DNA of 64,000 bases from Acidobacteriota bacterium (GTDB taxonomy: Bacteria > Acidobacteriota > Holophagae > Holophagales > Holophagaceae): assembly GCA_016192145.1 (NCBI GenBank), contig JACPUT010000002.1, forward strand, positions 186,001 to 250,000, read 5' to 3'. The translations under genes were made by a program, and so were the position numbers. The notes under the pieces were generated by a model. That model ran no database searches. It had not been told where the DNA came from and saw nothing but the letters and a program-made list of their open reading frames with translations. Of this stretch, positions 6,459 through 50,795 are shown piece after piece; position 1 is the first letter of the stretch, and each line of letters starts with the position of its first letter.

Positions 6459-6561
6459 GCCTTGGGCTATCGGCTTTGGACTCTGGCTGATTCCGACCCA
6501 TCCATTTCGTTCGGATGGGTCGGCGGCAGCTAGAGCCCAGAGCCGAGAGCCGATAGCCTAG
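6459..6561 (+). repeat. Palindromic intergenic repeat, family A copy 2
   Basis: The clearest A copy. The outer arms GGCTATCGGCT (from 6465) and its partner ending CGATAGCC at 6558 pair, and the centre CCGACCCATCC / GGATGGGTCGG is a perfect 11-bp stem round a 9-base loop. GGCTCT- and AGAGCC-type words iterate between. It sits between the superoxide dismutase stop and the start of the next small gene, and shares TGGGTCGGCG with copy 1. Confidence 0.75.
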
Positions 6562-12092: not shown

Positions 12093-12317
12093 CTGAACGC
12101 GGAGTTAACGCGGAGAACGCGGAGGGAGGTCGACCCACCCGTCCAATTGGCCTCCCGATTCAGGGTGGGACCCCAAGGCGGCCTTTAAGCCGCCCGGGGG
12201 CCCCGCCCTGAATCTTGGACCGCGCGCGGTCCAAGGCGCGAAGCGCCGGGAAGGCCTGCCGGAAGGTGCCAGCTTTTCTCCGCGTCCTCCGCGAAACTCC
12301 GCGCCCTCCGCGTTCAG
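12093..12317 (+). repeat. Structured mobile-like element, family B copy 1
   Basis: 225 bp between nusG and rplK, bounded by CTGAACGCGGAG (from 12093) and its inverse CTCCGCGTTCAG (to 12317), with CGCGGAG words iterated inside both ends. The middle 12149-12256 folds as an uninterrupted four-way junction. Closing helix: GGCCTCCC with GGGAAGGCC (one bulged A). Arm 1: 12157-12214, 26-base arms round CTTTAA. Arm 2: a perfect 20-base palindrome at 12215-12234. Arm 3: GGCGC-GAA-GCGCC at 12235-12247. The same plan recurs at 48458-48768 and 50475-50795 with different stem sequences. The stretch 12318-12514 holds no gene that I can see. Confidence 0.8.
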
Positions 12318-47272: not shown

Positions 47273-47775
47273 TGCGCCGAGGTCTTCTGCTCCTTCCCGC
47301 CCTGCTGCTCTTCACGGGCTGCGAAACCCTGAACCCCGTCGTCGCCCTGCGCGAGGCGGCGGGCCAGCTGCGGTTCAGCCTGGATCGCGTGGAGCCCCGG
47401 CTCGAACTGACCTGGCCCCTGGATCAGAGCCGTCTGCACCTGGGCATCGTGCTCGGGGTGGAGAATCCCAGCGCCACCCGGATCAACGCCCGGGGCCTCA
47501 AGGGCGATCTGAGCATGGTGCACGCGGGCAGCTCCCACGCCATCGGCCGGGTGCTCTTCCCCGAAGGCATCAATCTCGAGCCCAAGGCCCGGGGCACGTT
47601 GCGCGCCGAGCTCTCCCTCAGCTACAGCGAACTCAAGGCCGCCTGGGATCCCATCCGCAAGGTCGTGGGCCAGAAGGAAGCCGCCCAGTGGAAGCTGGAT
47701 GGCTCCGCGAAGCTGGAAGCCTACGGCCTGCCCTTCGACGTGCCCATCCACGCCACGAAGGGTTCCGGGAAGTGA
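47272..47775 (+). CDS. LEA14-like lipoprotein
   Basis: 167 residues. The lipobox LLFTGC places the lipidated Cys at 17. The rest is a beta-rich domain with LEA type 2 (WHy) features: LHLGIVLGVENPSATRINARGLKGDL (about 56-81), followed by GRVLFPEGINLEPKARGTLRAELSLSYSEL. Such domains occur in periplasmic or desiccation-related lipoproteins of unclear function. The start overlaps the queD stop, and its own stop overlaps the HAD gene start, so three unrelated-looking genes form one coupled unit. Confidence 0.72.
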   Translation: MRRGLLLLPALLLFTGCETLNPVVALREAAGQLRFSLDRVEPRLELTWPLDQSRLHLGIVLGVENPSATRINARGLKGDLSMVHAGSSHAIGRVLFPEGINLEPKARGTLRAELSLSYSELKAAWDPIRKVVGQKEAAQWKLDGSAKLEAYGLPFDVPIHATKGSGK

Positions 47776-48452
47776 TCCGCTGCATCGTCTTCGACCTCTG
47801 GAACACCTTGGTACAGAGCCGGGGCGGGAGTCCCTTCCAGCAGGTGCGTGCGCTGCTGCGGGAAGATCAGCGCGCCGCCTATCCCGAGCTGGTGCGGGAT
47901 GGCATGGGCCATGACCACGCCACCGCGGAGGCCTTCCTCGCCAGCTGGCGGGATCGGCTCGGGCTGGAGGAAGCCCAGGCCCAGGCCATGGCCCAGGCCT
48001 TCGCCACGGCGGATGCGGAGGCCCAGCTCTTCCCGGAGACCCTGGCCGCCCTGGATCGCACCCGCGAACTGGGTCGCCTGGCCATGCTCAGCAACACCCA
48101 GCGCTTCGATCTGGAGCTGATGGCGCGCCTGGGCCTGGACCCCTACTTCCGCATCAAGGGAATCAGCGCGGAACTGGGCGTCCTGAAGCCCGAACCGGGG
48201 ATCTTCGAGGCCATGCAGCAGAAGCTCGGCCTCTTTCCCGGCAACCTCGTGATGGTGGGGGACAGCTGGACCGACGACGTGGAAGGGGCCCTTGCCGCCG
48301 GCTGGACGGCCATCTGGGTGAACCGCAAAGGCCTTCCCAGGCCGGATCACGACCCCGAAGCCGAACTGGTGGAAGTGGACAGCCTCGATCAGGTGCCCCT
48401 CGTCGTGGAGCGGCTCCAAGCTGGGATGCGCTGTTCCACCTGCCTGGGGTAA
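47772..48452 (+). CDS. HAD-superfamily hydrolase
   Basis: 226 residues from a GTG at 47772 that overlaps the previous stop. HAD motifs: I FDLWNTLV (about 7-14, nucleophile Asp8; the usual second Asp is Trp, as in several haloacid-dehalogenase-like groups), II LSNTQRFD, III Lys in ELGVLKPEPGIFEAM and IV VMVGDSWTDDVEGALAAGW. The helical cap lies between motifs I and II (about 15-85). A small-molecule phosphatase or dehalogenase is likely; the substrate is not readable. It is convergent with rng across family B repeat copy 2. Confidence 0.82.
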   Translation: MIRCIVFDLWNTLVQSRGGSPFQQVRALLREDQRAAYPELVRDGMGHDHATAEAFLASWRDRLGLEEAQAQAMAQAFATADAEAQLFPETLAALDRTRELGRLAMLSNTQRFDLELMARLGLDPYFRIKGISAELGVLKPEPGIFEAMQQKLGLFPGNLVMVGDSWTDDVEGALAAGWTAIWVNRKGLPRPDHDPEAELVEVDSLDQVPLVVERLQAGMRCSTCLG

Positions 48453-48457
48453 AGGAA

Positions 48458-48768
48458 GAACGCGAAGGGCGCGAATGCCCCTTCGGGGCGCGAAGAGCGC
48501 GAAGGACGTACCGAGCGGAGGCTCCGCACATGGCTTCGCGGGCATCTTGAACCGGGATGAATCCATGGGCCGTGCGGCCTGGCGCGCCGAAGCGTCCGTT
48601 CATCTCCGACCTATCCCGGCCCTCCCTTCCCGATGCGACCCCAACGCGGCCCCCAAAAGGCCGCGCCGGGGTCGCATCGGGAAGCGCGCCGCCCTCGCGG
48701 CGCGGGCCGAAGGCCGGAGGGCCTTGCCCGAAGGTGCATTCGCGTGGCGCGCAGCGCCCTTCGCGTTC
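48458..48768 (+). repeat. Structured mobile-like element, family B copy 2
   Basis: 311 bp filling the gap between the HAD gene and the rng stop. The ends GAACGCGAAGGGCGC (from 48458) and its inverse to 48768 pair, with further TTCGCG words. The segment 48618-48723 (106 bases) folds with no unpaired base between helices. Closing helix: GGCCCTCC (48618-48625) with GGAGGGCC (48716-48723). Arm 1: 48626-48684, 26-base arms with two mismatches. Arm 2: 48685-48704, CGCGCCGC/GCGGCGCG. Arm 3: 48705-48715, GGCC-GAA-GGCC. It is the same orientation as copy 1 and opposite to copy 3. Confidence 0.85.
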
Positions 48769-48773
48769 CGCTT

Positions 48774-50291
48774 TTATCCCGGCAGGATCTCGAGCCCCAC
48801 CGTATGCCGAGCGACATCATTCCGCTCGATCCAAGCGACCTTGGCACCGAGGGCCCGCGCCAGATCCAACAGGCCTTCCCGGGCTTCACCCAGGAGGCCG
48901 GGGGCGGTGTCGGGGTGCACGGCCAGGCGCACGGTGGCGCCCTGGAGGCGATCGCCCTGGCGGGCAAGCTCGCGGTAGACGCGCAGGAGGATGGTTTCGG
49001 CGCTGGGCAGGCGGCCGCTGCCGGCGCAGGCGGGGCAGGGGTGGCTGAGCTGGCGCTCCAGGCTGGGGCCCGTGCGTTTGCGCGTCATCTCCACGAGGCC
49101 GAACTCGCTGAGGGCGGCGGCCCGGGCGTGGTTGCGGTCCCGCACCAGCTCCTCCTGGAGCCGTGCCATGACCTCTTCGCGGTGCTCGGCCAGGAGCATG
49201 TCGATGAAGTCCACCACGATGATGCCGCCCAGGTTGCGGAGGCGCAGCTGGCGCACGATCTCGGGGATGGCTTCCATGTTCGTGTGGAAGACGGTCTCCT
49301 CCAGATCCTTCTTCCCCACGTAGCGGCCCGTGTTCACGTCCACGCTGACGAGGGCCTCGGTCTGGTTGAGGACGATGGAGCCGCCGTGGCGCAGGTGCAC
49401 CTTGGGGCTGCGCGCCGCCTCGATCTCCTGTTCGATGCCGAAGGCTTCGAAGATGGGCAGGTCGGAGGTGAAGGGCTTCACCCGGTCGGCCCAATCCGGG
49501 TGCAGCTTCTGGACGATGCCGCGGACCTCCTCGTACACGGCGGCGTCGTCCACCCAGAAGGAGGCGACCTCCTCGCGGAACATGTCGCGGAGCACCTTGT
49601 GGAGGAGGCGCAGATCCTGCCAGACGAGGCCCGGCGCGGGCACGCGGGTGGCCTGGGCCTGCACTTCCGTCCAGAGGTCGCGCAGGAAGGCCACGTCGGA
49701 GAGGAGATCCTCATCCTTCTCGCCGATGGCGGCGGTGCGCACGATGAAGCCCTCGCCGGGGCCCGCGTGCTCCCGGATGAGGGCGCGCAGTCGATCCCGC
49801 TCCGCGGAATCGGTGATCTTGCGGCTGATGCCGATGTGGTCGATGCCCGGCATGTAGACGAGGAAGCGGCCGGGGAAGCTGAGGTGGCGCGAGAGGCGGG
49901 GCCCCTTGGTGCCGATGGGATCCTTCACCACCTGGACGAGCACCTCGTCGCCCTCGTGGAGGGGGGGCAGGGGCGCGGGCGGCGGCGGTTCCTCGGGGAC
50001 TTCGCCATCCTCGGCCTCATCCTCGGCATCGGCGCCTAGGCCCGCGGCCGCGAGCCGCTGGCTGACGGGGTCATCCAGGTAGAGGAAGCCATCCTTGGCG
50101 GTGCCGATGCCCACGAAGGCGCTCTGCATGCCGGGGAGGAGCTTGGCCACCCGGCCCTTGTACACGTTCCCGACCAGGCTCTTGCTGGTGGCCCGCTCGA
50201 TGAACAGCTCGCAGAGCTGGCCGTTCTCGAGCAGGGCGATGCGGGTCTCCAATGGGGTCGCATTGACCACCAGGGACTTCCGGACGTCCAT
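48774..50291 (-). CDS. rng: Ribonuclease G/E family endoribonuclease
   Basis: 505 residues from the ATG at 50291 (GAGAGG upstream). The frame runs further upstream, but MDVRKSLVVNATPLETRIALLENGQL is the family start. The S1 domain (about 40-155) is interrupted by an acidic and proline-rich insert (about 82-112: DAEDEAEDGEVPEEPPPPAPLPP). Catalytic DVNTGR and VVDFIDM hold the Mg-binding aspartates, and CPACAGSG is the zinc-link. It lacks the long C-terminal degradosome scaffold of RNase E, so it is RNase G-like. It processes rRNA and mRNA. It lies between two inverted family B repeats. Confidence 0.93.
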   Translation of the reverse strand: MDVRKSLVVNATPLETRIALLENGQLCELFIERATSKSLVGNVYKGRVAKLLPGMQSAFVGIGTAKDGFLYLDDPVSQRLAAAGLGADAEDEAEDGEVPEEPPPPAPLPPLHEGDEVLVQVVKDPIGTKGPRLSRHLSFPGRFLVYMPGIDHIGISRKITDSAERDRLRALIREHAGPGEGFIVRTAAIGEKDEDLLSDVAFLRDLWTEVQAQATRVPAPGLVWQDLRLLHKVLRDMFREEVASFWVDDAAVYEEVRGIVQKLHPDWADRVKPFTSDLPIFEAFGIEQEIEAARSPKVHLRHGGSIVLNQTEALVSVDVNTGRYVGKKDLEETVFHTNMEAIPEIVRQLRLRNLGGIIVVDFIDMLLAEHREEVMARLQEELVRDRNHARAAALSEFGLVEMTRKRTGPSLERQLSHPCPACAGSGRLPSAETILLRVYRELARQGDRLQGATVRLAVHPDTAPGLLGEAREGLLDLARALGAKVAWIERNDVARHTVGLEILPG

Positions 50292-50379
50292 GGGTTGTAC
50301 CTCTCTTCGAACCCGGCCAAGGGGGGACTCGCCCACCTTCCCAACACCACCAGGCCATGCCAGACCGGGGGGTGCTTCT

Positions 50380-50388
50380 TTTATACCA
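50380..50388 (-). promoter_or_regulatory. Candidate extended -10 promoter of rng
   Basis: On the minus strand TG-G-TATAAA (50388-50380), about 90 bases before the rng start. The -35 region is poor, as is usual with an extended -10. Confidence 0.4.
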
Positions 50389-50474
50389 CAGACGCCCAAT
50401 TCCCCCCGGACAGGGAGCTCCTCAACGGGCCCCGGCTGCCCATGCGGCGCCGGACCCGGTGACCCGAGAAGCAT

Positions 50475-50795
50475 GAACGCGAAGGGCGCTGTGCGCCACG
50501 CGAATGGACGCCTCGGTCAAGGCCCTCCGGCCTTCGGCCCGCGCCCATGTCGTGGGCGCGCTTCAGGGGGTGGGCGGTGGATGGTCCTTGGAAGCCATCC
50601 CTCGCCCACCCCCTGAAGGGAGGGCCGTGCTGGGGCGTAGGACACGGTTCCTGACTTGGAAAGCAGGCGCGGGTCCGCCCATGGCGGGTCATTCCGGGGC
50701 ACGATGCGCGCGAATGGGAATTCGAAGCCCTCGGCCCCGAAATCCCTTCGCGCTCTTCGCGTGGCCCGAAGGACCTATTCGCGCCATTCGCGTTC
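50475..50795 (-). repeat. Structured mobile-like element, family B copy 3
   Basis: 321 bp in the gap between panD and rng. The ends GAACGCGAAGGGCGC (50475) and CATTCGCGTTC (to 50795) pair. On the minus strand, the four-way junction spans 50626-50521 (106 bases). Closing helix GGCCCTCC/GGAGGGCC; arm 1 at 50618-50561 (24-base arms, two mismatches, CTTCAGGGGGTGGGCG-type); arm 2 at 50560-50540 (CGCGCCCA/TGGGCGCG); arm 3 at 50539-50529 (GGCC-GAA-GGCC). About 70 bases of the outer side are nearly identical to the inverse of copy 2, while arm 1 is wholly different. The rest of the gap 50292-50817 holds no gene. Confidence 0.85.

Follow-up and report, generated by a model that had tools for sequence, protein, structure and literature searches.

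At integron attC sites a single DNA strand folds and is recognised by its structure, and much of the sequence is variable. The 23S IVS of Coxiella has complementary ends and tandem 7-base repeats by an S23p ORF, and is cut from the rRNA by RNase III (PMC4990558). In Bacillus cereus, bcr1 and other repeats are 100-400 bp long, occur in multiple copies within one bacterial group only and have mobile features (PMC6542083). REP/BIME sequences are intergenic palindromes of 20-40 bp, tagged GTAG or CGTC, whose ssDNA hairpins are recognised by a transposase (PMC3733652).

We analysed a repeat of Holophagaceae (Acidobacteriota), gathered as 91 copies from 14 genomes, that is built around a four-way junction. 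The known kind to which we assign this junction element is that of small non-autonomous foldback/IVS-like elements. Like the 23S IVS it is a small foldback element with complementary ends, seen as the array stem of copy 1 and as recognisable matching inverted ends in 80 of the 91 copies (median element length 272 bp). In contrast to the IVS, it lies between protein genes and not in 23S rRNA, is without an S23p ORF (frequent, although not universal, in IVSs) and has a conserved four-way core together with arrays of ~9-mers. Nearest in style are the bcr-type repeats of Bacillus cereus, which it resembles in size, multiple copies, restriction to one group and mobile features; it differs in having copy-specific array ends and the four-way core, and no TTTAT repeats were seen in it. 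With MITEs and foldback elements it shares shortness, a non-autonomous character, inverted ends, dispersal in multiple copies and empty sites in relatives (29 at nusG-rplK), but its ends vary between copies, agree with each other inside one copy and are built of short tandem repeats. The precedence of structure over sequence that we propose for it recalls attC, which is however one imperfect hairpin and not a four-way junction.

Being interspersed, intergenic, palindromic and multi-copy, the element could be suspected of belonging to the known REP/BIME type mobilised by a RAYT (Y1_Tnp) transposase. This is very improbable: Y1_Tnp had no match in the host genome while the controls were positive, and a branched 106-nt core with few G-T pairs is unlike the 20-40 bp REPs, whose stems often show G-T pairs (PMC3733652). 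The contrast with the tagged REPs is drawn from length and branching. A REP/BIME of the known sort was rejected, there being no RAYT in the host genome.

The window, that is, the whole 64,000-nt stretch of DNA that was analysed (G000:C1:186001-250000), comes from a Holophagaceae genome; by panD, Geothrix and other Holophagaceae are its closest relatives. Copy 1 (12095..12315, plus strand) lies between nusG and rplK, on the strand of both genes, and has matched terminal arrays (TRF rows 12095-12124 and 12278-12313). From its 5′ end it comprises an array, GAACGCGGAGTTAACGCGGAGAACGCGGAGG (12095..12126, plus), a linker motif with CGACCCA, TCGACCCACC (12130..12139, plus), the four-way-junction core (12149..12256, plus) and a 3′ array that is the inverted match of the 5′ array (12278..12315, plus). 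Copy 2 (48458..48768, plus) has convergent gene ends on both sides, those of a HAD-like hydrolase gene (47688-48452, plus) and an RNase G/E-like gene (48774-50474, minus), both named by reading their translations. Its 5′ array, AACGCGAAGGGCGCGAA...GCGCGAAGAGCGCGAAGG (48458..48502, plus), core (48618..48723, plus) and 3′ array, ATTCGCGTGGCGCGCAGCGCCCTTCGCGTTC (48738..48768, plus), follow the same order. Copy 3 (50475..50795, minus) lies between panD and the RNase G/E-like gene, on the strand of both; in the orientation of the element its 5′ array is at 50745..50795, its core at 50521..50626 and its 3′ array at 50475..50506, all on the minus strand. Copies 2 and 3, in opposite orientations, flank the RNase G/E-like gene (48458-50795), an arrangement that resembles a composite element built around a housekeeping gene.

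When the three cores were folded one at a time, each gave a closing helix and three arms with zero unpaired bases at the junction, as the first-pass annotation had described, and its length of 58-59 bases for arm 1 was also reproduced (58, 59 and 58 nt in copies 1, 2 and 3). Under DNA parameters the core of copy 2 kept the same fold at -58.7 kcal/mol, with a z-score of -10.1 and none of 200 shuffles equal to it. Taken whole, with both terminal arrays, the elements likewise beat shuffles in folding by a wide margin (z -9.5, -8.2 and -9.1 for copies 1, 2 and 3), and the whole-element fold of copy 1 is an array stem with the junction as its cap. Across the family a three-branch junction stands on the closing helix in 88 of the 91 copies and is free of unpaired bases in 63 of the 91. 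The branched core is mostly 103-111 nt long. Arm 1 (56-60 nt) typically has a lower stem of 15-19 bp, separated by a small internal loop from a shorter, loop-capped upper stem; most copies show this interruption between the two stems, ~15-19 pairs in. Arm 2 measures 20-23 nt in most cases, and arm 3 is GGCC or GGGCC with a GAA-like triloop, a loop that is common. Two earlier statements did not survive the larger sample. Arm 1 had been called unrelated between copies, but once further copies are included the arms can be aligned as a single diverged family; the CCGAAGGTGC block, taken to be conserved, can be made out clearly in copies 1 and 2, is degenerate in copy 3 and is missing from many others.

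A covariance model built on eight copies (R1) found ~20 copies in the host genome and missed most of those in relatives, while a second model built on 20 diverse copies (R2) recovers the relatives' copies, with up to about 15 in several Geothrix-type genomes. Over 149 genomes of the wider phylum the matches of R2 were confined to Holophagaceae, in a search that scored few candidates per genome and so missed weak copies. Plasmids, searched by distant blastn, and viral contigs, searched with one exact pattern, each gave zero matches. Comparison of the window with Rfam returned tRNAs only at the gathering threshold, and permissive thresholds added sub-threshold generic hairpins alone; with no match in Rfam, the earlier remark that no named family has such a plan holds. 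Elsewhere in the host genome (G000:C7:677811-685209) ~30 tRNA matches are packed in 7.4 kb, as in the tRNA arrays of large phages/mobile elements.

The core had been taken for the whole element, whereas array to array the elements of the window measure about 220-325 bp. The earlier picture took in neither the larger element with its terminal arrays nor the evidence that the element is mobile. The layout runs from an A-tract through a 5′ array of ~9-mers, a linker (often CGACCCA), the closing helix with a long arm 1 (with internal loop), arm 2 and a short arm 3, and a second linker, to an inverted matching array and a T-tract. The arrays are degenerate, differ between copies and match inside a copy, as in the end pairs AACGCGAAG../..CTTCGCGTT, AACGCGGAG../..CTCCGCGTT, AACCACGAA../..TTCGTGGTT, ACACAGAGG../..CCTCTGTGT and GCCACCGAT../..ATCGGTGGC. 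The inverted end-match score had a median of 18.0, compared with 10.9 for mispaired ends. In 34 of the 91 copies CGACCCA lies immediately inward of the 5′ array, against about 0.6% expected. A search of the literature for the array sequences found no relevant paper.

Compensatory change had been read as a sign of selection or copying on structure, and this holds on the covariation in alignments of 20 and 61 copies. In the 20-copy alignment, which was fitted to the structure, both sides had changed in 39 of 43 pairs and pairing was kept in 95.6% of cells; column shuffles left 21 such pairs, and sliding the partners by 1-3 columns left 12-20. Cells with two-sided change numbered 169, compared with 42 in shuffles. 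The 61-copy alignment was built on the fold predicted for each copy, by counting positions from its junction, and took clean-junction copies only, so that it also leans towards the structure. Over its 64 helix columns the APC-corrected G statistic placed 22 of the 31 variable pairs above the top of the background of 1,984 non-pair column pairs. Relatedness does not account for the covariation, because the background column pairs carry the phylogeny of the true pairs.

Double Watson-Crick changes were frequent between similar copies, making up 37% of changed pairs where 1-3 of 32 pairs differ. Such changes, and the DNA-like mismatch spectrum described below, would also arise if template switching or hairpin-mediated gene conversion at replication, with no selection, kept the palindromes perfect by changing both arms together. 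Template switching alone is a serious rival, but the persistent internal loop counts against its being the only cause: correction by itself would remove the recurrent interruption of arm 1. The GAA-like loop of arm 3 is common, the four-helix plan is constant, and at low divergence the mismatches gained by orthologous copies are mostly one-sided, which again speaks against it. An account with no selection is quite unlikely in our judgement. Because the mismatches of orthologous copies are mostly one-sided, the host is not strongly selecting the fold in situ; it appears not to guard the fold at each inserted site, and pairing must consequently be renewed in the propagating lineage.

Whether the fold is kept as RNA or as a DNA cruciform had been left open in the first-pass annotation. 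We compared mismatches on the premise that a selected transcript tolerates G-U and rejects A-C, pairing helix cells by position rather than by energy. Among 2,012 cells of the junction helices, 1,897 were Watson-Crick, 30 were G-T and 45 were A-C. The same count in 50 host tRNAs gave 43 G-U and 2 A-C in 850 stem cells (Fisher p 1.5e-10 versus the element). Reading the helices on the opposite strand gave a ratio of 45:30, which still differs from tRNA (p 1e-5), and a column-wise count, given because cells are not independent, gave 19:19. On neither strand of the element helices was there an excess of G-T over A-C, unlike in host tRNAs. Judged as a structured non-coding RNA, then, the element has covariation but lacks G-U tolerance over A-C (30:45, versus 43:2 in tRNA). 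Since G-T is not commoner than A-C, neither strand behaves as a selected RNA and the fold appears to be kept as DNA. Part of this balance comes from the neutral decay of inserted copies, which is not fully separable from it here; the equality of G-T and A-C could partly reflect the decay of dead copies while an RNA-selected master goes unseen.

The genomic position of the copies also bears on an RNA role. An element that is co-transcribed, folds in the mRNA and is either processed, perhaps by RNase III in the manner of 23S IVSs (PMC4990558), or caps or terminates transcripts would have its RNA structure selected. Copy 1 in the sense orientation within the nusG-rplK operon suits such an element. 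So does the upstream neighbour gene, which is on the element's strand in 59 of the 86 cases where it was called, and so do the tracts just outside the ends: an A-tract at the 5′ end in 32 of 80 copies (4 of 80 at a control position) and a T-tract at the 3′ end in 27 of 80 (5 of 80 at the control). By simple composition-based gene calls the copies lie between protein genes, with 30 convergent and 9 divergent sites. This preference avoids promoters, as tolerated insertions would, and it would also suit a bidirectional terminator; convergent siting and the A/T tracts together fit a transcript-level role, e.g. termination. Between co-oriented genes, however, there was no significant strand bias (26 versus 18, p 0.29), and the element is absent at orthologous sites of relatives. 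With the mismatch counts added, we regard selection on an RNA structure as unlikely.

Comparison of orthologous sites showed that the element is mobile or recently gained. The nusG-rplK spacer is 489 bp here with the element, and 66-244 bp without it in 29 relatives, one of them of the same genus. In Geothrix species the panD-rng spacer has no element in some cases and in others holds simple array hairpins or junction elements whose arrays are different ones, and in some of these spacers (L029, L027, L019) array elements of differing types are nested in or replace one another. At this site the element of Geothrix sp. SG200 (L015) is inverted in place relative to that of G. paludis (L030), with flanks collinear at 135/150: the two elements are identical at 175/206 positions when one is inverted and at 138/180, with 55 gaps, in direct orientation, and with respect to the element the two matching flanks come in the opposite order. 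A second site is inverted alike (L204/L240 versus L244), while at other orthologous sites (L191/L192/L198) orientation is kept. At one orthologous site there is a suggestion, though not a clear one, that the two ends changed in concert: the ranges of within-copy and between-species end identity overlap. No clear target-site duplication was seen by eye.

We favour, with moderate confidence, the view that the junction is the conserved core of a small non-coding mobile foldback family, IVS/MITE-like and non-autonomous, whose folded DNA is the substrate of propagation. A candidate enzyme would read the shape, not the sequence, of a folded single DNA strand or of an extruded cruciform, and would do so at excision, copying or inversion of the element; the lineage that propagates would have its pairing renewed, and inserted copies would drift. 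Fold, covariation, DNA-like mismatches, gain at specific sites, in-place inversion and shared arrays are observations; the action of an enzyme, with the junction as its substrate, is inferred. Recognition of DNA shape is favoured because it accounts for the constant four-helix plan, for the recurrent internal loop, for helices that show no preference for G-U, for elements inverted in place and for a fold kept with little regard to sequence. The inversion could also be ordinary recombination between inverted arrays. The element offers a natural example of a four-way nucleic-acid shape that is conserved under little sequence constraint, and a simple test points to DNA over RNA.

As regards a cognate transposase, such arrays were seen to be shared with GxxExxY and S23 elements only. 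Genes for GxxExxY proteins (TIGR04256/PF13366; PD-(D/E)XK-type nuclease fold, Pfam PDDEXK_3) are bounded by similar arrays at nearly all of 29 loci examined, and S23 genes of Holophagaceae (PF05635/TIGR02436; 23S-IVS-type) by 7-mer arrays, e.g. (GCTATCA)n, (TTCAGTC)n and (GCTGGAG)n, a further likeness to the IVS. Inverted end-match medians were 25.6 for GxxExxY and 22.2 for S23 loci, each versus 11.0 for mispaired ends. The 99% level of mispaired ends was exceeded by 11 of 29 GxxExxY loci, 4 of 19 S23 loci and 15 of 91 junction elements, only a part of each set because some loci share array types. Copy-specific matching short-repeat arrays of this sort occur round both GxxExxY and S23 genes across Holophagaceae (L180-L184, L119-L148 and L149-L174), and we found no prior description of them.

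CGACCCA, shared with the junction element in the host genome, is present in both S23 elements of that genome and in 0 of 14 S23 loci from other genomes. S23 genes sit in separate array-bounded elements, and a search of their loci with R2 found no junction; the S23/IVS link to the junction element is one of anatomy, not of core homology. Since the Coxiella IVS has complementary ends and 7-base repeats by its S23p gene, the S23 members look by their anatomy like IVS-type elements living outside rRNA. With the same kind of copy-specific arrays round GxxExxY and S23 genes, the junction element in turn looks like a non-coding member of an IVS-like class. We found no paper on the 23S IVS and four-helix bundle as a mobile element, and a search of titles and abstracts gave no GxxExxY paper in a relevant context.

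In a sharper form of the favoured explanation, the GxxExxY protein would be the enzyme that cuts or resolves the junction, with the element as its non-autonomous passenger. Its genes have arrays of this kind on both sides, at least one such gene is found in every carrier genome, and G024 is a genome where a GxxExxY gene lies beside a junction element with the same array. The presence in all carriers is weak evidence, because 62 of 77 family genomes have the gene regardless, and a sequence search for a related solved structure found none; we consider this assignment rather improbable. A wider proposal, which we regard as unlikely, is a shape-directed class of mobile DNA with matched, re-written short-repeat arrays as ends and a GxxExxY gene, an S23 gene or a Holliday-junction-like folded core as payload, the nuclease working in trans on folded DNA of whatever sequence. 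GxxExxY proteins, S23/IVS proteins and the surrounding arrays, none with an accepted function, are tied together as parts of an apparent single element class, which makes the movement of IVS-like elements a testable question.

At 6465-6559 of the window a bare hairpin has matched 7-mer arrays (GGCTATCGGCT...), CGACCCATCC at both inner ends and ~9 bases between; it looks like an 'empty' S23-type element. Genome G065 (4.5 Mb) has 49 GxxExxY matches, compared with 0-10 in other family genomes, a recent burst.
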